Assembly: GCA_938002965.1 (NCBI GenBank)
Contig: CALKZY010000014.1
Coordinates: forward strand, 1-64,000
Direction: 5' to 3'
DNA from: an uncultured Acidimicrobiales bacterium
Lineage (GTDB): Bacteria; Actinomycetota; Acidimicrobiia; Acidimicrobiales; SZUA-35
Length of the DNA: 64,000 bases
The position numbers and the translations under genes are program-made. The notes beneath the pieces are model-generated. The model made no database searches, was not told the DNA's origin, and was given only the letters and a program-made list of their open reading frames with translations. Within the stretch, counting starts at the first letter, position 1. The number at the start of each line of letters is the position of its first letter. Of this stretch, positions 4,992 to 63,998 are shown one piece after another.

Positions 4992-5102
4992 CCGTTTCAA
5001 TCGGGTCTGGTCGGCGGCGGTTTCGCGGCGGTTCCCGGGATTTCACCTGCTAGCCTCATAAGGTCGGTTGATACGCGACCTCGGTTGCGCCGACTACACC
5101 CT

Positions 5103-50832: not shown

Positions 50833-52152
50833 TTAGGAAACGACTTCGATATCGATGGCTACGGTGATCTTTTCACCGGCGGGCGTGGTGGCGATCAGCG
50901 TGACCTCCCCTTTGCCAGGGTTGGTGGCTTCGAGGGGAAGGCTGGGTTCGTTTGAGTGGAAGGTTCCGGCTGGGCTGATCCAAACCCACTCGGTGATCGC
51001 GGGGTCGAGGTTGGCGGTGTAGGTGACCGTAGAGCCGAGCTCGATCATGTTCGGCCCGCTGATCGAGACGCTGATATCGGCGGTGGTGGCGGTGGATGTG
51101 GCTGTTCCCTGGTCGACTTCGGTGTTGAATCCTCGCCCAGTGAACTCTCCAAAGGACGAGGCGGCAAGCCCCAGGGCTAAGCCGACCAGCAATGCCAGCA
51201 CCGACGCCGTGATGGCTAAGGTCCGTGAGCTGCCAGGTTTGGTGTGGCTGTTAGCGCGGGCCGACGAGCCGGTCGTAGCTGGTGCTGATCGTAAGGCGGT
51301 GTCGATGTTCTGGTACCAGGAGGCCATACTCGGTGGCCGGTCGCTTGGGCTTTCCGCCAGGCCTGCTTCGATGGCGCTGATGAGTTCGGGGGTGGCCATC
51401 GGCGCCAGACTGTCTTGTCGCAGCGTCGTCGAGTCGCTGGGGGGATAGCCGACGAGGTACCAGTACATGATGGCCGACGCGCCCCAGATATCGGCTCGAT
51501 GATCGACTTGGCCCGCTTGGCGTTGCTCGGGTGGGGTGTAGCCCGGTGTTCCTCCGCCCACGGTTAGCCCGGAGTTCTGAGCAAGGTCTTTGGCGAAACC
51601 GAGGTCGCTTAGTAATACTGTCTCACCTCGATTTATTAGCGGACCGACAATTCTCGTCTGAGCATCCGGGACGGCCTTGCGGGCCCCGAAGATCAACAGA
51701 TTGGACGGTTTGAGGTCCCGATGTACAACGCCTTGCTCGTGGAGTCCGGCTACGACGTGGGTAAGGATTTCGGCTAGGTGGCGTGTGTCATCGATGGTGG
51801 GGACTGCCACCCGCCGCCATCCTTCGATTCGGGTGGCTAAATCGCCTCCGTCGGCCAGCGGCATAACCAGGAACGGTTGGCCGCTTGGGGTTTCGCCGGT
51901 GTCGTAAACCGGCACGACCGGGCCGGGGTTCTTTCGCAATAGGAGCGCTTCGGAAAGAAAGCGTTCACGGATATCGAGATTAGTTGAAAGGTTGTCAGCT
52001 AAGACCTTGATGGCAACAGGGCTTTCAAACCTGCTGTCGATGGCCGAGTACACGGTGGAAAATCCACCTGCGCCAACGATTCCGGTGACACTCCAGCGGT
52101 TGTTGGGGCCCAGCGACTCAACCGCCTGTTGGCCTGGCTGTATGTTACTCAC
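50833..52152 (-). CDS. receptor-type Ser/Thr protein kinase
   Basis: A 439-residue product from the GTG at 52152; a longer in-frame extension would overlap the sigma gene. The kinase domain has GAGGFSTVY (27-35), Lys49 in VAIKVL, HRDLKPSN (144-151), SDLG in place of DFG (182-185) and YTPPEQ. One membrane segment (about 311-333) leads to an outer part of about 100 residues that reads like an Ig/PKD fold (GSTVTYTANLDP, GEVTLIATTPAGEK) rather than PASTA repeats. It should sense an outside signal and phosphorylate cytoplasmic targets. It lies 22 bases after the sigma gene, a likely partner. Confidence 0.85.
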   Translation of the reverse strand: MSNIQPGQQAVESLGPNNRWSVTGIVGAGGFSTVYSAIDSRFESPVAIKVLADNLSTNLDIRERFLSEALLLRKNPGPVVPVYDTGETPSGQPFLVMPLADGGDLATRIEGWRRVAVPTIDDTRHLAEILTHVVAGLHEQGVVHRDLKPSNLLIFGARKAVPDAQTRIVGPLINRGETVLLSDLGFAKDLAQNSGLTVGGGTPGYTPPEQRQAGQVDHRADIWGASAIMYWYLVGYPPSDSTTLRQDSLAPMATPELISAIEAGLAESPSDRPPSMASWYQNIDTALRSAPATTGSSARANSHTKPGSSRTLAITASVLALLVGLALGLAASSFGEFTGRGFNTEVDQGTATSTATTADISVSISGPNMIELGSTVTYTANLDPAITEWVWISPAGTFHSNEPSLPLEATNPGKGEVTLIATTPAGEKITVAIDIEVVS

Positions 52153-52174
52153 GCCTCGATACCGGTCATCGGAT

Positions 52175-52729
52175 CTAGGTGGCCAACAACGACTGGGCGG
52201 CAATGGCTCGGCCGCGGGCCAAGCGGGATCGAACCGTGCCGATGTTGATTGTGAGGCGGCTGGCGATGTCGTCGTAGCTGAGGCCGTCAACGTCTCGAAG
52301 TAGCACGACGTCGCGGTAGTGGTCGGGTAGTCCGTTGAGGGCCGATTCGATGTCCTGGCGGCTGGAGATAATGGAACTAACCCGCTGGGTGGGGGAGATG
52401 TCATCGTCTCGGAGTTCAACATCACTGCGTTTACGTCGCAGATGGTTAATAGCGCAGTTGCGGGCCACAGTATGAAGCCAGGTGGTGAACTTGGCTTCAC
52501 CTTTAAAGGAAGTGATGCCCGAGGACACCTTTATAAGGACGTCCTGGGCGAGGTCGTCGGCATCGGTGTCGTCGACGATGAGGGAACGTATCGCCGGGCG
52601 GGCCAGTCGTTTGGTGTCGATGATGGTGAGTAGCCGGTCGAGCGCTTGAGTATCTCCGGCCGCGGCTTGCCGGGCCAGAACATCGATATCAGCCGTTTGG
52701 GTCATCGCACGCCGCCGCTCCACCCCCAT
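52175..52729 (-). CDS. ECF-like sigma factor paired with a kinase
   Basis: A 184-residue product from the ATG at 52729, which has AGGA 8 bases upstream; the ATG at 52705 is an alternative. Region 2 (DADDLAQDVLIKVSS, FTTWLHTVARNCAINHLRRK) and region 4 (LPDHYRDVVLLRDVDGLSYDD, then RSRLARGRAI) are clear. No anti-sigma gene is adjacent; a receptor kinase follows instead, so phosphorylation may control it. The insertion sequence ends 57 bases upstream of the start and may have displaced or supplied the promoter. Confidence 0.88.
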   Translation of the reverse strand: MGVERRRAMTQTADIDVLARQAAAGDTQALDRLLTIIDTKRLARPAIRSLIVDDTDADDLAQDVLIKVSSGITSFKGEAKFTTWLHTVARNCAINHLRRKRSDVELRDDDISPTQRVSSIISSRQDIESALNGLPDHYRDVVLLRDVDGLSYDDIASRLTINIGTVRSRLARGRAIAAQSLLAT

Positions 52730-52785
52730 GGTGCGAATCCTATCGTGGGTCCATGATTGCCGCAGCTTGGGGACTGTACCGATCT

Positions 52786-54183
52786 TTGTGTAAGCGGGGT
52801 GGTCATCGTTTAGGTGTGGGCGGTCAGTCGGTCGTGGTAGTGGATGGTCAATGTGTTCAAGATACTTTTCCATCCGTTGATTCGCCCGGTCGGGTTTGAC
52901 CGGTTCTTCTGTCGGTCGATCGAGACGAGATACAGCACTTTCAGCGCCGATTGCTCGGTGGGGAAATGGCCTCTGCGGACAGCGGCTTTACGGAACCTTG
53001 AGTTCAGCGACTCTATGGCGTTTGTCGTGTAAACGACCTTGCGGAGTTCGACCGGAAACTCCAGGAACGGGACGAAGTTATCCCAGGCGTCTCGCCAAGA
53101 TTTGATCATCGCCGGGTAGGTGTCTTCCCAGGTTTCGATGAACTCTGCTAGCTCGACCTCGGCAGCGTCTAGTGACGGGGCAATGTAAATGTCTTTCAAC
53201 TGCCGGGTGATCGCTGGCCAGCGTTTCTTCGACGCGAACCGGAGCGAGTTGCGAACCAGATGAACAACACACAACTGGACATCAACCAGTGGCCACACTG
53301 CCCTCGCTGAGTCCGGTAAACCTCTGAGGCCGTCGCAGCATAAGACCAACACATCCGCGATGCCCCGGTTCTTGAGTTCGGTCATGACCGACAACCAGAA
53401 CTTCGGGGATTCCCCACCGGTAGGCCCGACCCACAGGCCCAAGATGTCGCGGTGACCGTCCATATTGATCCCCATCACCACATACACGGTGCGGTTAGTG
53501 ACGGTGCCGTCACGGATCTTGATCCGGATTCCATCCACCAGCAACACTGGATAGACGACGTCGAGAGGTCTCGACTGCCACGCCAGCATGTCCTCAACCA
53601 CCGCATCAGTGATCCGACTGATCGTGGAACGGGGCACGACCTGGCCGGTCAGTTCCTCCAAAATGGGCTTCGATGTCACCGGTGGTAAGACCCTTGGCAT
53701 ACAGCGAGATCACCGCTTGATCTAAACCGGTCAACCGGCGTTCACCTTTGGGAACCGTGACCGGATCAAAGGTGCCGTTGCGATCCCTGGGCACCTCGAC
53801 ACGAACGTCACCAACCTCGGTTCGGACCGTTTTCGGGTATGTCCCGTTGCGTGAGTTCCCGCTACGCTTTCCCTCGACGGCGTGGGGTTCGTAGCCGAGA
53901 TGATCGGTCAGTTCGGTTTCGAGGGCGGTGTGCATGACCTGTTGAATCAAACCAGTCAACAACCCACCGTCACCGGTTAGCGAGACACCATCAGTCCGGG
54001 CTTGATCGACCAGCCGATCGGCCAGCATCGCTAGCCCAGCATCGGGCGGCAATGCCAACTCCGCCGAGGCTCGAGGCTCGAGGCTCAGCCGAACCAGAAT
54101 TCTTGTTGTCAGTCATCAAAGTGATCCTTCCAGATCCACAACCAGAAATCGTGGATCAATCAGGACCACCCTCACTTACACAA
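52786..54183. mobile_element. IS256-family insertion sequence (inactive)
   Basis: A transposase of the IS256/Mutator family is flanked by imperfect terminal inverted repeats: TTGTGTAAGCGGGGTGGTC at 52786-52804 and its partner TTGTGTAAGTGAGGGTGGTC read from 54183 to 54164 on the minus strand (one gap, one mismatch). The length of about 1.4 kb fits the family. No exact target duplication was seen. It separates the sigma/kinase operon from mcrBC. Confidence 0.85.
52810..54116 (-). pseudogene. IS256-family transposase, two frameshifts
   Basis: The original start is probably the ATG at 54116 (AAGGA 8 bases upstream), reading MTDNKNSGSAEPRAS. Three exact copies of GAGGCTC (54066-54086 on the plus strand) push it out of frame; two copies would restore MTDNKNSGSAEPRASAELAL. 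A second break near 53663 has one extra G after IEAHF, so the frame switches to EELTGQVVPRSTISRITDAV. The rest holds DDE-type motifs (VLLVDGIRIKIRD, VLVLCCDGLRGL, YTTNAIESLNSRFRKA). Programmed frameshifting is unlikely in this family, so the element should be immobile unless helped in trans or the sequence is in error. Confidence 0.85.
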
Positions 54184-54285
54184 TCAGTGGTACAGCCCCG
54201 GGAGCCCGACAAGTAGCAGGTTCGAACGGAATAGATTGGTGAGGAGAGAGCACATCGATCATCTGTTTATACCGAGGAGGATTGC

Positions 54286-56820
54286 GTGACCACCGAAGCT
54301 GGGCGGTGCCTGAGTCTTGATCAGGCTGCAAAGGAATGGGACCGTGAGGCGATTGTCCCGCGGGTCGAGCAGGCAACCTCAGAGCGGGAGCAGTTTATTG
54401 AACAGTTCCCGCTCTCGGTTTGGCCGGACTTGCCCTTAGATAGGTATGCGCTCGGCCTGCCGAATAGCCAGGAGAGCCTCTGTTACCTGCTGGAGTTTGC
54501 GTCGGTCATCACTGGCTCCATAAAGGGTGGCTCGGCTAGCAAGCACCTGATCTTCATGCGCCAGGACGGAACGGGTTGGGCATTCCCCAAGAAGTATGCG
54601 TCCGTTGAGGAAGCGTGGGATGCCATCCGCCGTGGTTTCGCTGAGGTAGTCAAACTCCTCGCCGAGCAGCGTTGGAACGAGGCCGACGAGGTTGAGGCGA
54701 CCTGGGAGGCATCTGCGGTCCGGACGAAACTGGCTTGGATGTACTTTCCCGATCAGCTACTGCCTATTTACTCATTCCGGCACCTCGACTATTTCATCGA
54801 CATCTTCGGTCTTGATTCCAATGTTGACGGGACGATCAACAAGAACCGGCTGCTCTTTGAGGATCTCACCTCACGGGATATCTTCAAAGGCTGGTCGCCA
54901 CTTGAGATCATGTACTTTCTGTACAGCTGGACCGACCCTACGCCCAGTCATCAGATCGTGAAGATCGCTCCCGGGTCTGACGCTCATCTGTGGGACGATT
55001 GCAAGTCCAATGGCTACGTCCGGGTCGGCTGGGATGCGGTCGGTGACCTGACGCTGTTTGACGACGTTGACGCCATTCGTCGAGCGCTGCAGTCCCGGGA
55101 AGGAATGGAGCACCGGGGGACGATCACCAAGACCGCTAGGGCCCTCGACAAGCTACGGTCGCTACAAGACGGCGACATAGTAATCGCCAACCGAGGGACG
55201 AGTGCCGTGGTCGGCCTGGGACGGGTAGCCGGCGGATACGAGTTCCGCCGGGACCTTCCGGATCATCAGCACACGGTCATGGTCGACTGGTTCGATGCCG
55301 AGGAGCGTGCCGTCGACTTTGGGGCGGCCTGGCGCCCGACCATCGTCAACGTTCGACCGGGGGAGTATCACCAGATTCTGCAGGCCGGCGACGAGCCGAC
55401 AAACCCGGGCAATCTCCCGCTTCCTCCGGTGGACCCGGTTCTGCTAGAGGTCGAACGGCTGCTTGAACGTAGTGGCCAGGTGATCCTGTATGGCCCGCCC
55501 GGGACCGGCAAGACCTATACCGCCAGCCGGTTTGCAACGTGGCTGCTGTCGGGTGGTTCAGCTGATCCGGAAGCGGCCCGGGTCTTTGAGTCGACGGAGA
55601 TGCTTCGCTCCCACCGGGACGCGCTCTCAACAAGCACGGCCAGCGACGAGCGCCCGGCGTGGTTGGTTGTTGCCAACCCTCAGGAGTGGGCCTGGAAGCA
55701 GTTGGTCGAAGAGGGTGTTGTCGACTACAGGTACGGACGCATCAAGGCCAACTATGACGACCTCGAGCCCGGTGACGCTGTTTACGCCTACGAGGCTACT
55801 CCGGTGAAGGCCGTCGTTGGCAAGGCCCGAATCCAACACGGGCTTCACACCAACGCCGAGGGGGACAAGAAAATTCTGATCGATCGTGGTGAGTTGATCG
55901 ACGGCGGGCCAACCTGGGCACAGTTGCAGGCCGACCCGGTTCTGGCCCAATGCGAAGCCGTCCGACACAGCATGCAGGGCACCGTCTTCCGGTTGGAGCC
56001 CAACGAGGCCGCTCACCTCGATTCGCTGCTCGGCAAGGGGAATGTCAATACGAAGCCGAGCGGTATGGCTCAGCTGGTACAGGTCACCTTCCACCCGTCG
56101 TACACCTACGAGGACTTCATCGAAGGTTACAAGCCGGTTGAATCCGGGGGCGCCGGCCTTGAGTTGAGGATGAGAGACGGAGTCTTCAAGCGATTGTGCC
56201 GGGCCGCGGCCGCCGACCCGGACCGGAAGTACGTTCTTCTGATTGATGAGATCAACCGCGGTAACGTTCCGAAAATCTTTGGCGAGCTGATCACCCTCAT
56301 TGAGGCAGATAAGCGCGGCACTATAGTGACGCTGCCTCAGTCGGGTGAGTCGTTTGCCGTCCCTCCCAACGTTCACATCATCGGGACCATGAATACCGCG
56401 GACCGGAGCATCCACATCTTGGACACGGCTCTGCGCCGTCGCTTTGCTTTCCTGGAGTTGTTACCTGAACCGGCGCACCTGGAGGGTGTAGCGGTCGGCA
56501 ACCTGCCTGTCGATGAGCTCCTTCGCGAGCTCAACGGCCTCATTCGCTCCGAGATTGGTAGGGAAAAACAGATCGGTCATGCTGTGCTGATGTCAGGCGG
56601 CAAGCCGATTTCCAGCGCTGATGAGCTGGCTTTGGCGTTTAGGTACGAAGTCCTCCCCCTGCTTCAGGAGTATACCTACGGCGATTACAGCGATCTGGCC
56701 CTCCTTCTGGGCGACGAGATCATCGACACGGAGAACCAGACTCCACGCGAGTCGGTCTTGAAAGACCCTGAGCTTCTGGTTTCTGCGCTGGCCACCCACC
56801 TCAATATCGCTTCGTCGTGA
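54286..56820 (+). CDS. mcrB: McrB-type AAA+ GTPase with two EVE/PUA-like reader segments
   Basis: An 844-residue product from a GTG with GAGGAGG just upstream. Residues 1-215 form a helical N-terminal domain. Residues 223-366 look like an EVE/PUA-type reader (HQIVKIAPGSDAHLWDDCK, SLQDGDIVIANRG, VGLGRVAGGY). The AAA+ core has Walker A GPPGTGKT (403-410), then a second EVE-like segment at about 458-575 (WLVVANPQEWAWKQLVEEG, LEPGDAVYAYEA, AVVGKARI), then TFHPSYTYEDFIEGYKP, Walker B LLIDEINRGN (651-660) and MNTADRS. McrB hydrolyses GTP to move DNA to McrC; the EVE segments would sense modified bases. A reader placed between Walker A and B is unusual. It overlaps mcrC by 4 bases. Confidence 0.88.
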   Translation: MTTEAGRCLSLDQAAKEWDREAIVPRVEQATSEREQFIEQFPLSVWPDLPLDRYALGLPNSQESLCYLLEFASVITGSIKGGSASKHLIFMRQDGTGWAFPKKYASVEEAWDAIRRGFAEVVKLLAEQRWNEADEVEATWEASAVRTKLAWMYFPDQLLPIYSFRHLDYFIDIFGLDSNVDGTINKNRLLFEDLTSRDIFKGWSPLEIMYFLYSWTDPTPSHQIVKIAPGSDAHLWDDCKSNGYVRVGWDAVGDLTLFDDVDAIRRALQSREGMEHRGTITKTARALDKLRSLQDGDIVIANRGTSAVVGLGRVAGGYEFRRDLPDHQHTVMVDWFDAEERAVDFGAAWRPTIVNVRPGEYHQILQAGDEPTNPGNLPLPPVDPVLLEVERLLERSGQVILYGPPGTGKTYTASRFATWLLSGGSADPEAARVFESTEMLRSHRDALSTSTASDERPAWLVVANPQEWAWKQLVEEGVVDYRYGRIKANYDDLEPGDAVYAYEATPVKAVVGKARIQHGLHTNAEGDKKILIDRGELIDGGPTWAQLQADPVLAQCEAVRHSMQGTVFRLEPNEAAHLDSLLGKGNVNTKPSGMAQLVQVTFHPSYTYEDFIEGYKPVESGGAGLELRMRDGVFKRLCRAAAADPDRKYVLLIDEINRGNVPKIFGELITLIEADKRGTIVTLPQSGESFAVPPNVHIIGTMNTADRSIHILDTALRRRFAFLELLPEPAHLEGVAVGNLPVDELLRELNGLIRSEIGREKQIGHAVLMSGGKPISSADELALAFRYEVLPLLQEYTYGDYSDLALLLGDEIIDTENQTPRESVLKDPELLVSALATHLNIASS

Positions 56821-59390: not shown

Positions 59391-62300
59391 TCATGGCCTG
59401 ATGACCGTGACCGAGGTCGCCCCAGGCGTATTGCGAAGGATCCGCCTTAATTGCCGACTGCGAAGTCCGGCTCGCCCAAACTTGAAGTCCCAGACTCGAC
59501 CTGTAGAACTCTGGAACACGTCGAGCCGAACACTGCCGCGAGCCCCGTACCTACTCAGGAGACCACCCCTGAAACTAATTTCGGTTTCCAGTCCTCTGTG
59601 GCGGATCTTCGTTTGGTACCTATTGATCAGATCTTCGGCATGCTTATGCTTCATTGTTCCAAGTGTTCGAGCTGAGACTCTCTTGCCGGATGCAGCAACT
59701 TGTTTGTTGACTTCGCGGTCCGCAATCTTCGCAACGTTTTTGAGGAACGCGACATCGCAATTGTGGTTTAGATATGAGCGATCATCGACTCCCACATAGT
59801 ACGTATGCGTACCAGCGATAGTTAAATTATGTACCGTTGTTCTAGACCGCTTTTGTCTCTCAACTGCGAGGATGGCATCAGGATCGCCGTTGGAGTCTAA
59901 GAGAACATCTCCGGGATCCAGTCGACCAGCTTTCAGCCAGCTTCCTGATGACACAGACCAGAATGGGTGATTTGACGTTGCCGTGATCGAGACTAACCCC
60001 GTTTTCAGGGTGACTACTTCCTTGTTCCCACTGCCGACAATGGCCGCAGTAACGACCCCAACCGTCTCCTCACCTGCCTCTGTTGAATAACTCTGGACGA
60101 CGTTTCCGACCTTGACGTCTTCGATGGCGGCTAACGAACCGTCGGCCATCAATACCTTGGTGCCCGGTACGAACGAATTACTTGCCGCACACTTCGTTGC
60201 CAGGTTTGATGTGCTTGACTTGGCACTTCTCTTTGCCGATCTTTCGGCGAGCTTTTTGGCGCCCTTCGAAACACCCTGGGCGACATCGTCGCAGAGTTTC
60301 TTGCACAACCGTGCAGCGGTTGCAGCGTTGCCCGCTATTGGGATCATTGATGCAGCTGACAGGGCTGCGTTGGCGTAGTCACCCTTCAACAGATAGAGGC
60401 CGGCATTCGCTGCGTCAGCGAACTCCCCGATGACTGGCACCATGCCAGCGACATCGAGCGCGGTGTGAACATCAATCTTCTTGGCGGCTTCGACGGTCTT
60501 CTTGGCTGCCTTGGAGACTGCGCCTCCGGCCTTCTTCACAGTCTTCTTGATCGATGACAGGCCCCACTCCCCGTTTGGGTCGTAGAACGTCATCGGGTTG
60601 TTCATGGCATGGGTGTACCGGTTCAACGCCACCGGATCGTTGAAGTCCGGGACCGCCTGATCAGGCGAGATGAACCGGCCCAGGCTCGGGTCGTAGAACC
60701 GCATGCCGTAGTCGAGCAGATCAGTGACCTGGCTCAGCCGTTGGCTGTTGTAGCTCAGATGGCCGCCTATGGGGTCGCCACGGTTCTCACCCCACGGTGT
60801 GTACCGGCCGATCTCAATGTCGTTGATTGACGATGCCAGCGCTGCGGCCGAGTTCAGATGGTCGTTGAAGACGTACTTGGTGTCGCCCCCCTCGCTGACC
60901 GCCACCCGGCGACCACCGAGGTAGTAGTGCGAAACTTGAGAGCGGGTCTGGTCGTCGCTGCGCCACTCGAACGTGTCGCCCACATAGACGACGGCCTCAC
61001 GGCCCTGAATGCGGACAATCCGCATGCCATCGGCGTCGTAGAGGTATCGCTCGACGGTGTCGCCACCGTCCGAGCCTGACGACGGTTCACCCGGTCCGCC
61101 CGATCCGGCGTTGTCACACGAGTCTGAACTGAACGACACAGACACAGGGGCGACGGAGTTGAAGCTGTCCTTGGCTGTGAACAGTCGCGCCCGAATCGAG
61201 ACGGCGGCCCCAATGTTGACATCGCGAACTGTCGTCGTGTTTGTGGTGTCACCAACCGGCAGGTCGTCAGTCGGTGAGTCGACGGTGGTGAAGACGACAT
61301 GGCCCGCGTGATCCAAGCCTTCGATGAACCACTGCTCCTGCGGTTGATCAGGAGCGTCAGGGTGTGCCGGATCTGAGGAGACAAACGTCAGATCGTAGGT
61401 GCCGCCCGCAGCCAGTCCGACCAAGTCGACCGGTGGCGGCTGCTCCTGCTCAGCGCCCTGAGATCCGACAAGCTTCGTGCCGTCGAACTTTGCGACGTAA
61501 CAGACACCGCCCTTCCCATCACCACCGGTTGTCACGGTTGCCAGGCGATTGTCACTGTCGAAAGTGAGCGTTTGGGCGACACCGTCAACCGTGCGCATGG
61601 TCTGGTTGCCGTTGGCGTCATAGCCGTACTGATTGCCCGACTCGGTCGCCGTTACCTGCAACGGCCCGGCACCGTCACCACCGTAGGTGTAGACACCAAG
61701 GCCGGTTTTGGAGGACAGGCTGTGGTTGCGTCGGTACTGGTGCTCCTCATCGAAGGGGCTCTCGCCAATCGATGCATCATGCCCGCCGCAACCCTCGGCT
61801 CCAGTGAACGCCGTCGTCAAGCGAGAGAAGCTGTCATACGACAAACACTGGGTCTGACCGGCGTTGACACGATCCACAATTGAGGTGGTGTTGCCGCGCT
61901 GGTCGTAGCTGTACGACATGGCCACGACGTTCGAGGCTGAACCTCCAACGCCCGCCTCGTAGCTGGTGGTCCGCTCGGTGCGAGCGTCAACCTCCCAGCG
62001 CTCAACTGCAGCCTCACCAGACGGCCCGTACGTGCGGCTCCGCCGTTGACCGTCCGAGCCGTACACCGTGTCGTTGACCAACACACCCTGAATGTCCGAC
62101 GCAAGCCCGACGGGAAGGCCGGTTCGATTGTCAAAGTCGGTGGACACCAGCTCGCCGGTGTCGCCACCGGCATTAGCCGGGTAGCGAATGGAGAGCTGCT
62201 GACCGGCAAGGCCATAGGTGAAGTGTTGGTTGAACGTGCCACCGAACTCACCGGGGACAACCGTCTGCTGGTGAAGCAGTAAACCTTCCTCGTCGTAGGC

Positions 62301-63998
62301 CAGGTTGACGACATCCAGCGTTCCGTCCGGAGTGAACGAACGGCTTCGATGCAACCGGTCCCGGCCGGTGGACGGGTTGTCGTAGTGGAACTCGGCCAGC
62401 GGTTGGCCGCCAGACGCTGACTCGTTGGACTCTTGGCGTTTGGTCAGACGGTCAAGCGGGTCGTAGTCGAAACGCAGCCAGACCTCACGGGCGTCGCGTT
62501 GCAACGTCATGTTCCCGTTCGGGTCGTACCCGAAACGCCACTCGCCCAGGCTCGGATCGTCCAACGTCGTGCGGCGGCCCTGACGGTCGTAGGTCATCGA
62601 CGTAACATTGCTGTCAGCGTCAGTTGACGTGAGCAGCCGTTCAGCTGCGTCGTAGGTGTGAATAGAGCGGGCGTACTCGGTGGCGGAATCTCCCTGGCCC
62701 TCGTATTCCACGACGGTGGCCAGGTTGCCGAAGGCATCGTAGGTGTAGTCGGTCCGGTAGCCGAGCTCGGCCGACTCGTCGTACACCCGAGTCGTCCACC
62801 CGTCGTAGGCGTAGTCGATGTCCCAGTCGGTACTGTCTTGGCCCTCGGCGGTGCCGATGGTCCGGTCACGGGTCATCTCGCCGCGTGCATCATAGGAATA
62901 CTCGTGACGCAGCGGGACGGTTTCCCAATTTGGGGCGAAATAGTCGGATGCTTCCACCTCACCCGGCTGCTCGAATGCCGTCGAGTGGCGGGCCAACCGA
63001 CCGGCGTCATCAAAGTAGGCGGCCGAAATCCATCGGTTGCCGTCAGCCTGGGCCCGGGCCTGCATTTGGATGTCGCGTCCAAGACCGTCCATGTAGGACA
63101 CCGAAATCAGGTAGCGATCATCGCCAGACTCGGTGTCGTCGAACAACTGCCGGGACGTAACCTTGATCGGCCGAGCCTCAACGTCGTAGTCGAACCGATA
63201 GCTGGGATCACCGGTCTTGTTCCCGGGCAGTACAACAGTTGAAAGGCGGTCAAAATTGTCATACGAGAGGCGAGAGACCTTCTGATTGACATCGCTGACC
63301 GAAATCTGCCGACCGATGTCGTCGTAGTCGTACTCGGTCCTCCACCCCAGCGGATTCACTTCGGTGCGCAGCCACCCCTGAAGCGGATCCAAGTGGAATG
63401 TCGTTTGGTTCCCGTTCGGGTCGGTGGCGTCGATCAGCTGGCCACGCTCGTTGTAGCCCGACGACGACTGACTGGCCGACGACTCGTCGGTGAACGACCA
63501 CTCCGACGTCACCAGGCCACGTGACGGCTCCTGGCTACAGGCGGTGTCCGACTCCTGGCCCCGTTCAGCGTCATAACCCATGCGAGTCTCGCTGACCGTC
63601 TCGCCATCGGCGACTCCGGAAATCACCCGCTCCCGGCAGGGAGTCGAGACAATCCACTTGTCGACGTTCTTGACGAACTCGGTTTCCAAACGACGATCAT
63701 CGGAGTCACTATCAACGTCGCCCCGTTGGAACTCGGTGAGAACGTTGCCGTGAACGTCGTAGAGATAGTCGACCCTGCTGGTCTTATCGTTGCTGCCTGA
63801 AGAGGTTGTCTCGATACGCCACGGAGCTATGAACCGAGCCGCCTGGTCGCCTGAACCGGCGGTGATGAAGATGCCCTTCTCATCACCATCGGCGAAACCG
63901 TCCCGGGCAACGTCAAACTGGGTGAGTTCCCGCTCACGCTCGGTCCCATCGAGCTCCATGCGAACCATCTCGTACTGCTGACCATGCAAGATGCGAGG
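59391..63998 (-). CDS. Rhs/YD-repeat polymorphic toxin with HINT and REase-like C-terminus (5' partial)
   Basis: The frame is open to the right edge; the visible part is at least 1532 residues. Most of it is YD repeats (YDYDDIGRQISVSDV, RFGYDPNGNMTLQRD) that form the Rhs cage. The core end is MRFYDPSLGRFISPDQ and PMTFYDPNGEWG. A short helical linker leads to a pretoxin HINT domain of about 145 residues (NSFVPGTKVLMADGS, ATSNHPFWS, HNLTIAGTHTYYV, ending LNHNC). The last 121 residues are basic and carry SVRLDVFQ and VWDFKFGR, a PD-(D/E)xK-like pattern, suggesting a nuclease. HINT would cut the toxin free. A probable immunity gene follows. Confidence 0.88.
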   Translation of the reverse strand, partial: PRILHGQQYEMVRMELDGTERERELTQFDVARDGFADGDEKGIFITAGSGDQAARFIAPWRIETTSSGSNDKTSRVDYLYDVHGNVLTEFQRGDVDSDSDDRRLETEFVKNVDKWIVSTPCRERVISGVADGETVSETRMGYDAERGQESDTACSQEPSRGLVTSEWSFTDESSASQSSSGYNERGQLIDATDPNGNQTTFHLDPLQGWLRTEVNPLGWRTEYDYDDIGRQISVSDVNQKVSRLSYDNFDRLSTVVLPGNKTGDPSYRFDYDVEARPIKVTSRQLFDDTESGDDRYLISVSYMDGLGRDIQMQARAQADGNRWISAAYFDDAGRLARHSTAFEQPGEVEASDYFAPNWETVPLRHEYSYDARGEMTRDRTIGTAEGQDSTDWDIDYAYDGWTTRVYDESAELGYRTDYTYDAFGNLATVVEYEGQGDSATEYARSIHTYDAAERLLTSTDADSNVTSMTYDRQGRRTTLDDPSLGEWRFGYDPNGNMTLQRDAREVWLRFDYDPLDRLTKRQESNESASGGQPLAEFHYDNPSTGRDRLHRSRSFTPDGTLDVVNLAYDEEGLLLHQQTVVPGEFGGTFNQHFTYGLAGQQLSIRYPANAGGDTGELVSTDFDNRTGLPVGLASDIQGVLVNDTVYGSDGQRRSRTYGPSGEAAVERWEVDARTERTTSYEAGVGGSASNVVAMSYSYDQRGNTTSIVDRVNAGQTQCLSYDSFSRLTTAFTGAEGCGGHDASIGESPFDEEHQYRRNHSLSSKTGLGVYTYGGDGAGPLQVTATESGNQYGYDANGNQTMRTVDGVAQTLTFDSDNRLATVTTGGDGKGGVCYVAKFDGTKLVGSQGAEQEQPPPVDLVGLAAGGTYDLTFVSSDPAHPDAPDQPQEQWFIEGLDHAGHVVFTTVDSPTDDLPVGDTTNTTTVRDVNIGAAVSIRARLFTAKDSFNSVAPVSVSFSSDSCDNAGSGGPGEPSSGSDGGDTVERYLYDADGMRIVRIQGREAVVYVGDTFEWRSDDQTRSQVSHYYLGGRRVAVSEGGDTKYVFNDHLNSAAALASSINDIEIGRYTPWGENRGDPIGGHLSYNSQRLSQVTDLLDYGMRFYDPSLGRFISPDQAVPDFNDPVALNRYTHAMNNPMTFYDPNGEWGLSSIKKTVKKAGGAVSKAAKKTVEAAKKIDVHTALDVAGMVPVIGEFADAANAGLYLLKGDYANAALSAASMIPIAGNAATAARLCKKLCDDVAQGVSKGAKKLAERSAKRSAKSSTSNLATKCAASNSFVPGTKVLMADGSLAAIEDVKVGNVVQSYSTEAGEETVGVVTAAIVGSGNKEVVTLKTGLVSITATSNHPFWSVSSGSWLKAGRLDPGDVLLDSNGDPDAILAVERQKRSRTTVHNLTIAGTHTYYVGVDDRSYLNHNCDVAFLKNVAKIADREVNKQVAASGKRVSARTLGTMKHKHAEDLINRYQTKIRHRGLETEISFRGGLLSRYGARGSVRLDVFQSSTGRVWDFKFGRAGLRSRQLRRILRNTPGATSVTVIRP

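Follow-up and report, generated by a model that had tools for sequence, protein, structure and literature searches.

McrB subunits form rings that hydrolyse GTP and drive the nuclease McrC, with N-terminal domains that read the modified base (PMC7680126). The closest structural reference for the protein described here is McrB of T. gammatolerans (TgMcrB; 6ut3-6ut8, 6P0F and 6P0G; PMC7680126), which is its best PDB match both by sequence and by fold and which combines an AAA+ GTPase core, an upstream PUA-superfamily reader and an McrC partner. The TgMcrB reader is a YTH domain that binds 6mA DNA with the modified base flipped into a pocket (PMC7897488). Three further systems employ the EVE domain. 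EVE-McrB fusions, found in nearly 300 genera, carry an EVE domain and an McrB motor in a single chain (PMC7641849; Bell et al., 2020). PcdA of Staphylococcus joins two EVE domains to an McrB-family AAA+ module (PMC10602043), and the EVE-HNH endonuclease VcaM4I uses its EVE domain as the modified-DNA reader of a restriction enzyme, flipping 5mC or 5hmC into a pocket (PMC7897488). A census of McrBC systems noted that the GTPase domains "frequently contained insertions", which are likely to be specificity domains (Bell et al., 2024; PMC11090510).

The window analysed here, a 64,000-nucleotide stretch of contig CALKZY010000014.1 from an uncultured Acidimicrobiales bacterium, encodes an McrB-like protein that shares with TgMcrB the AAA+ core, an upstream PUA-superfamily reader and an adjacent McrC, but has two readers rather than one, the second being an EVE domain located within the motor itself. 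In TgMcrB about 15 residues separate the Walker A helix from the F-H-x-S-Y motif, in contrast to about 180 in the window protein with its EVE domain. EVE-McrB proteins examined outside the window family have the EVE domain upstream of Walker A and not inside the core. PcdA likewise differs in that both of its EVE domains are N-terminal, its GTPase is degenerate and its role is in cell division (PMC10602043), whereas in VcaM4I the EVE domain is joined end to end with an HNH nuclease and a motor is absent (PMC7897488). The features of the locus are as follows.

54274..54280, plus strand: GAGGAGG, the likely ribosome-binding site of mcrB (from reading the sequence)
54286..56820, plus strand: mcrB, 844 amino acids, GTG start
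54343..54945, plus strand: N-terminal, mostly helical domain, McrB residues 20-220 (PADLOC PD-T4-1, E 1.8e-19 at residues 26-214; helices in the model)
54946..55401, plus strand: EVE/YTH-like reader 'd2', residues 221-372 (PADLOC PDC-S02, E 1.7e-12; predicted model, Foldseek and hhalign)
55492..55515, plus strand: Walker A, GPPGTGKT, residues 403-410
55654..56028, plus strand: nested EVE domain within the AAA+ core, residues 457-581 (Pfam, profiles, AlphaFold2 and Foldseek)
56089..56103, plus strand: F-H-P-S-Y motif, residues 602-606, at the point of return to the AAA+ core
56230..56250, plus strand: Walker B region, residues 649-655 (IDEINR at 653-658)
56392..56403, plus strand: NTAD, the McrB NxxD signature, residues 703-706 (motif meaning from PMC11090510)
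56434..56442, plus strand: RRR, residues 717-719, at the place of the two McrB arginines (role from PMC7680126)
56817..58127, plus strand: mcrC, 436 amino acids, downstream of mcrB with a 4-base overlap (PF10117, 161.2 bits, cut-off 23.9)

The neighbouring genes lie on the minus strand. Just upstream of mcrB is an IS256/Mutator transposase in two overlapping ORFs in different frames that looks broken (52810-54058), and further out are overlapping ORFs for a Ser/Thr protein kinase and an ECF-type sigma factor (50833-52873). On the other side of mcrBC is a 1532-residue RHS-repeat protein with a Pretoxin-HINT match near its C-terminus (59391-63989).

The GTPase motif set of the window McrB is complete, comprising Walker A, F-H-x-S-Y, Walker B, NxxD and the arginines. 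PF07728 is matched at 64.8 bits against a cut-off of 22, and the best PDB matches by sequence are the McrB proteins of T. gammatolerans and E. coli (E 1.4e-49). The NCBIfam equivalogs for McrB (NF008457, 141.2 of the 637 bits needed) and McrC (NF007277, 83.3 of 338) score far under their cut-offs, so the pair is classed as McrB/McrC homologues and not as E. coli-type equivalogs. The protein has the NxxD signature (NTAD) and not the NxD of the CoCoNuT branch. A comparison set of 168 unique McrB-like ORFs was assembled, 147 of which contain all three spacing motifs; the 21 lacking one were left out of the spacing counts. The distance from Walker A to F-H-x-S-Y is 199 residues in the window protein against 20-69 residues in 134 of the 147. 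An uninterrupted Walker A/F-H-x-S-Y segment is thus a trait of most McrBs, one that the window protein lacks, and not a defining property of the family.

The preliminary description, made from the sequence, had read an EVE-type domain between the Walker A motif and the F-H-P-S-Y and Walker B motifs, and this order was confirmed by Pfam in relatives, by profile searches and by the predicted fold. The proposed extent of 458-575 held for the EVE assignment, with the end of the domain corrected to about residue 581 and the whole extra segment spanning roughly residues 430-597. Pfam EVE (PF01878, cut-off 23) scores 19.0 bits against the full-length window protein, 22.2 and 23.0 bits against the excised insert, and 25.9, 31.1 and 31.1 bits in the relatives L018, L019 and L020, all above the cut-off; by Pfam the window copy taken alone is therefore borderline. 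A profile built from the four nested domains alone matches the EVE structure 2gbs with E 4.8e-7 (1zce and 2g2x, at 0.22 and 0.38, are not significant), and a 13-row EVE profile, with the four nested domains and nine from other McrBs, matches 2ar1, 2gbs, 1zce, 2eve and 2g2x at 2.8e-14 to 3.6e-8. The nested domain retains the N-P, G-D and Q-G-T-x-F features common to the upstream EVE domains of other McrBs. One of the two named pocket residues of 2eve, Y82, sits in a loop that is missing from the shorter window domain, as counted by hand on the alignment.

A full-length AlphaFold2 model, calculated with a fragment-free alignment of 37 rows (A8), has a mean pLDDT of 87.5 and a pTM of 0.59, the latter leaving the relative placement of the domains unsettled. 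The EVE order of strands and helices appears at residues 458-581, between the AAA+ helix 409-421 and strand 597-601, with a pLDDT of 63-93 by blocks of ten over residues 461-580. In Foldseek the model pairs with McrB chains, of which 6ut5 is the best (E 3.6e-18), and separately with the EVE structures 2gbs, 2ar1, 1zce, 2g2x and 2eve (E 6.2e-6 to 1.6e-5, target TM 0.70-0.75). The EVE matches are assigned to the insert because 2gbs matches residues 459-562 by sequence and because the other reader has a lower TM, only 0.52-0.54 against 2ar1, 1zce and 2eve. The possibility that residues 458-575 are merely an enlarged AAA+ loop is ruled out by the EVE barrel of the predicted fold; as modelled, the insert is an EVE barrel in an otherwise intact McrB core.

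Upstream of the motor, a second PUA/EVE-like stretch had been proposed at residues 223-366, and this proposal stands. The isolated model of the upstream reader (pLDDT 94.0, pTM 0.87) resembles YTH and EVE structures: the best 50 of its 245 PDB matches by Foldseek comprise 43 YTH and seven EVE-type chains, at modest E values of 1.5e-4 to 2.9e-3. By hhalign the upstream-reader profile matches the EVE profile at 93.4%, with three control pairs at 0.13-0.35%. No Pfam match was found for residues 221-372 of the window protein, EVE appearing in only one of 27 family members (E 0.061), and a PDB search with the upstream-reader profile returned no solved structure apart from one chance-like match at 0.18. 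The region is known to PADLOC as part of PDC-S02. From model and profiles, residues 221-372 are assigned to an EVE/YTH-like fold of the PUA superfamily and are placed in neither the EVE nor the YTH family. Domains of this EVE/YTH-like family, which is without a Pfam entry, occur in 46 of the 168 unique McrB-like ORFs, placed either ahead of Walker A or in the stretch from F-H-x-S-Y to Walker B, in a count that uses an alignment (A5) including some of those domains by construction.

The N-terminal domain of the window protein matches PD-T4-1, a defence protein listed with PD-(D/E)xK nuclease (PMC10952713). No such match is present in the relative L020, which has other sequence in its place, and the constant unit is therefore taken to be the upstream reader, the motor and the nested EVE domain.

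Scanning peptides of the query against about 85,000 species genomes produced 30 relatives. The nested EVE domain is present in three (L018, L019 and L020; L002 and L003 represent the same genes as L019 and L018, respectively); their inserts are 50, 36 and 30% identical to that of the window protein, without stops. Since four genomes share the layout, it is more than a chance event. All three relatives have mcrC downstream (PF10117), and in L019 Type I M and S genes lie beyond mcrBC. The McrB frame of L019 also remains open for more than 300 codons, from about position 5032, ahead of the start corresponding to that of the window protein; this stretch could encode an additional N-terminal domain or belong to a preceding gene in the same frame. 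Relative to the nearest homolog the insert is 50% identical, the upstream reader 48% and the core 71%; both readers have drifted more than the motor.

Searches with the insert profile covered several samples. In the window's phylum two of 396 genomes matched, namely the window and one with EVE upstream; in its order two of 298 matched, the window and G077. Seven chosen records yielded two matches, L020's genome and a haloarchaeal plasmid with EVE upstream, and the phylum of L020's genome yielded one of seven, that genome itself. In a planctomycete-centred sample 14 of 147 genomes matched, in every case in ORFs lacking an McrB core match. No nested EVE domain beyond the four genomes was found in these phylum, order, record and planctomycete samples, and the figures for spread are lower bounds, given that the peptide scan detects only close relatives and that the samples may have genomes in common. 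Among viral contigs 23 stretches matched the insert profile by pattern, not one of them a relative, and none of the 14 phage records with an McrB-like match covers 80% of the query. Two plasmid records match the insert; both are haloarchaeal, and in both the EVE domain precedes Walker A. Three plasmid McrBs from proteobacteria gave an unbroken alignment across the insert but were set aside, since their additional residues are located after F-H-x-S-Y, before Walker B, and give no EVE match.

A quick tree was calculated from three joined core segments from each of 136 McrBs, omitting the inserts (11 of the 147 ORFs were excluded); it has long branches, and 56 of its 133 inner branches have support below 80, so it is to be read with caution. 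A single branch (SH-aLRT 96) separates the four EVE-bearing cores from the rest, and the seven cores bearing the other insert described below are likewise set apart (SH-aLRT 96). The nearest core to the EVE-bearing four is L083, from a Flavobacteriales-centred sample, in which the upstream reader is present and 53 residues separate Walker A from F-H-x-S-Y. The simplest reading of these sequences would be a single gain of the EVE domain inside an McrB that already bore the upstream reader.

Other McrB cores in the comparison set also contain nested domains. The EVE domain occupies the site between Walker A and F-H-x-S-Y in four of the 147 ORFs (spacing 199-203). In seven others (L024, L058, L062, L063, L080, L122 and L123; spacing 154-160) the same site is filled by a different, mutually similar domain of about 100-130 residues, denoted A9, which hhalign relates to EVE at only 0.16%. 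No match to the A9 domain was found in Pfam, with four of the seven members scanned alone, or by PDB profile search, and an identification with the winged-helix domains of HARE-HTH type gains no support from either. One further ORF (L127, GPPGTGKT) has a spacing of 134 to F-H-x-S-Y and is listed apart from both sets, and the spacing of 334 in L162 was rejected as deriving from a chance 'Walker A' motif, the proper one being further along the sequence.

With the four-row profile, nine proteins show an EVE domain of the window's subtype ahead of Walker A, six with E <=1.5e-12 and three weak (5e-5 to 6e-4). A second insertion point lies between F-H-x-S-Y and Walker B, where eleven ORFs have relatives of the upstream reader; eight of the eleven are included in alignment A5, so that their match to it is by construction, and an independent four-row profile finds all eleven, nine with E <=1e-5, L129 at 3.4e-5 and L131 at 9.8e-5 over part of the domain. 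Two of the eleven, L126 (residues 353-507 and 77-226) and L127 (354-508 and 5-144) from a cyanobacteria-centred sample, have copies of the reader both nested before Walker B and upstream, a two-reader arrangement that uses the second insertion point. The haloarchaeal plasmid McrBs L050 and L051 have both reader types upstream of Walker A, the first match in L051 being weaker and partial, and the pairing of EVE with an EVE/YTH-like domain therefore recurs wherever the EVE domain sits.

The part of the comparison set that came from five phylum samples covered 995 genomes with 138 matches, from which 123 loci were cut, 118 of them unique, giving 100 ORFs with the motifs after the window copy had been dropped as a duplicate. 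None of these 100 McrBs has an EVE domain at the window's site, which rules out the possibility that this is the standard McrB layout. An A9-type unrelated domain is present at that site in five of the 100, a reader before Walker B in 11 and an upstream EVE domain in ten. The EVE-in-core layout is real and conserved but rare; nested domains in McrB cores generally are not rare.

On balance, the window McrB probably serves as motor subunit in a modification-dependent restriction system of the McrBC type, with two base readers of the PUA superfamily and the EVE domain nested just after Walker A; by analogy, modification-dependent restriction with two readers is a likely function. The McrB subunits would assemble into a GTP-driven ring that cooperates with McrC, the nuclease of the adjacent gene. 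Every subunit would present a helical N-terminal domain, an EVE/YTH-like reader before the motor and, emerging from the motor between helix α-1 and strand β-2, an EVE domain; both readers would most likely contact the invading DNA. The upstream reader would recruit the ring to a modified base, while the nested, motor-fixed EVE domain would check a further base or one of the same class, so that only suitably marked DNA triggers cutting. Ring formation, GTP use, DNA cutting and base flipping are attributed to the window system from knowledge of the family and are expected by analogy. Both domains are putative base readers, and the nested one may affect assembly or GTP turnover; two modifications might be recognized, and recognition might be coupled to GTP turnover. 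As the nested EVE domain follows directly on the helix that starts at Walker A, the nucleotide site could sense binding. Because EVE proteins can act on RNA, DNA is only the probable target.

The nested EVE domain could instead serve as a DNA grip or spacer, holding any DNA beside the ring or propping the ring, with residues 221-372 alone setting the specificity. The presence of an unrelated domain (A9) at the same point in seven of the 147 McrBs indicates that the site tolerates domains of different kinds and agrees with such a role, as does the location of the TgMcrB N-terminal domains on the outside of the ring, where the DNA path is unsolved (PMC7680126). However, the nested domain retains the EVE features N-P, G-D and Q-G-T-x-F, and those EVE domains of restriction enzymes whose function is known bind modified cytosine (PMC7897488), making a purely mechanical role unlikely. 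It is less probable still, and rather improbable overall, that RNA or a modified nucleotide, and not phage DNA, is the target of the system. EVE and YTH domains do read RNA in eukaryotes, and RNA is the predicted target of one branch of McrB relatives, the CoCoNuTs (PMC11090510), but the window protein has the NxxD signature (NTAD) and not the NxD of CoCoNuTs, its McrC matches PF10117 and the mcrBC genes of L019 lie near Type I M and S genes, a DNA-restriction neighbourhood.

An insertion that is dead or accidental in one genome, arising from decay, misassembly or a loop that resembles EVE, would account for the whole-protein Pfam EVE score below the cut-off and for the IS256-type transposase in two overlapping frames just upstream. 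This explanation is highly improbable, as it is contradicted by the conservation of the insert in four genomes (30-50% identity, no stops), by the relatives that pass the Pfam cut-off and by the match of the predicted fold to EVE structures.

The preliminary description had suggested that the architecture might be undescribed. For the exact arrangement this holds: no description of an EVE domain at the Walker A/F-H-x-S-Y site was found in the passages of the literature consulted, and the census of McrBC insertions names, in the portion of its text considered here, no inserted domain, site or lineage (PMC11090510). It does not hold in general, since insertions in McrB cores are published as a class and nested readers are common at the second site in the sample. 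A more general idea, offered tentatively and as somewhat doubtful, is that McrB motors repeatedly acquired base readers at two fixed positions within the AAA+ core, allowing recognition to act directly on the GTPase in a two-key, motor-mounted form of proof-reading; the window clade would be the version at α-1/β-2, the other point being that between F-H-x-S-Y and Walker B.

How base sensing leads to GTP-driven cutting by the McrBC ring is unsolved, the reader domains in the structures of PMC7680126 being too poorly resolved to show it. The nested reader offers a handle on this problem, and a simple one, since a reader folded out from α-1 would be rigidly tied to the nucleotide site, so that its pocket could be mutated and GTPase activity and cutting measured. 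For the family, the existence of two points in the McrB core that accept whole domains would aid both the annotation of McrBs with a split Walker A region and the prediction of which bases they police.
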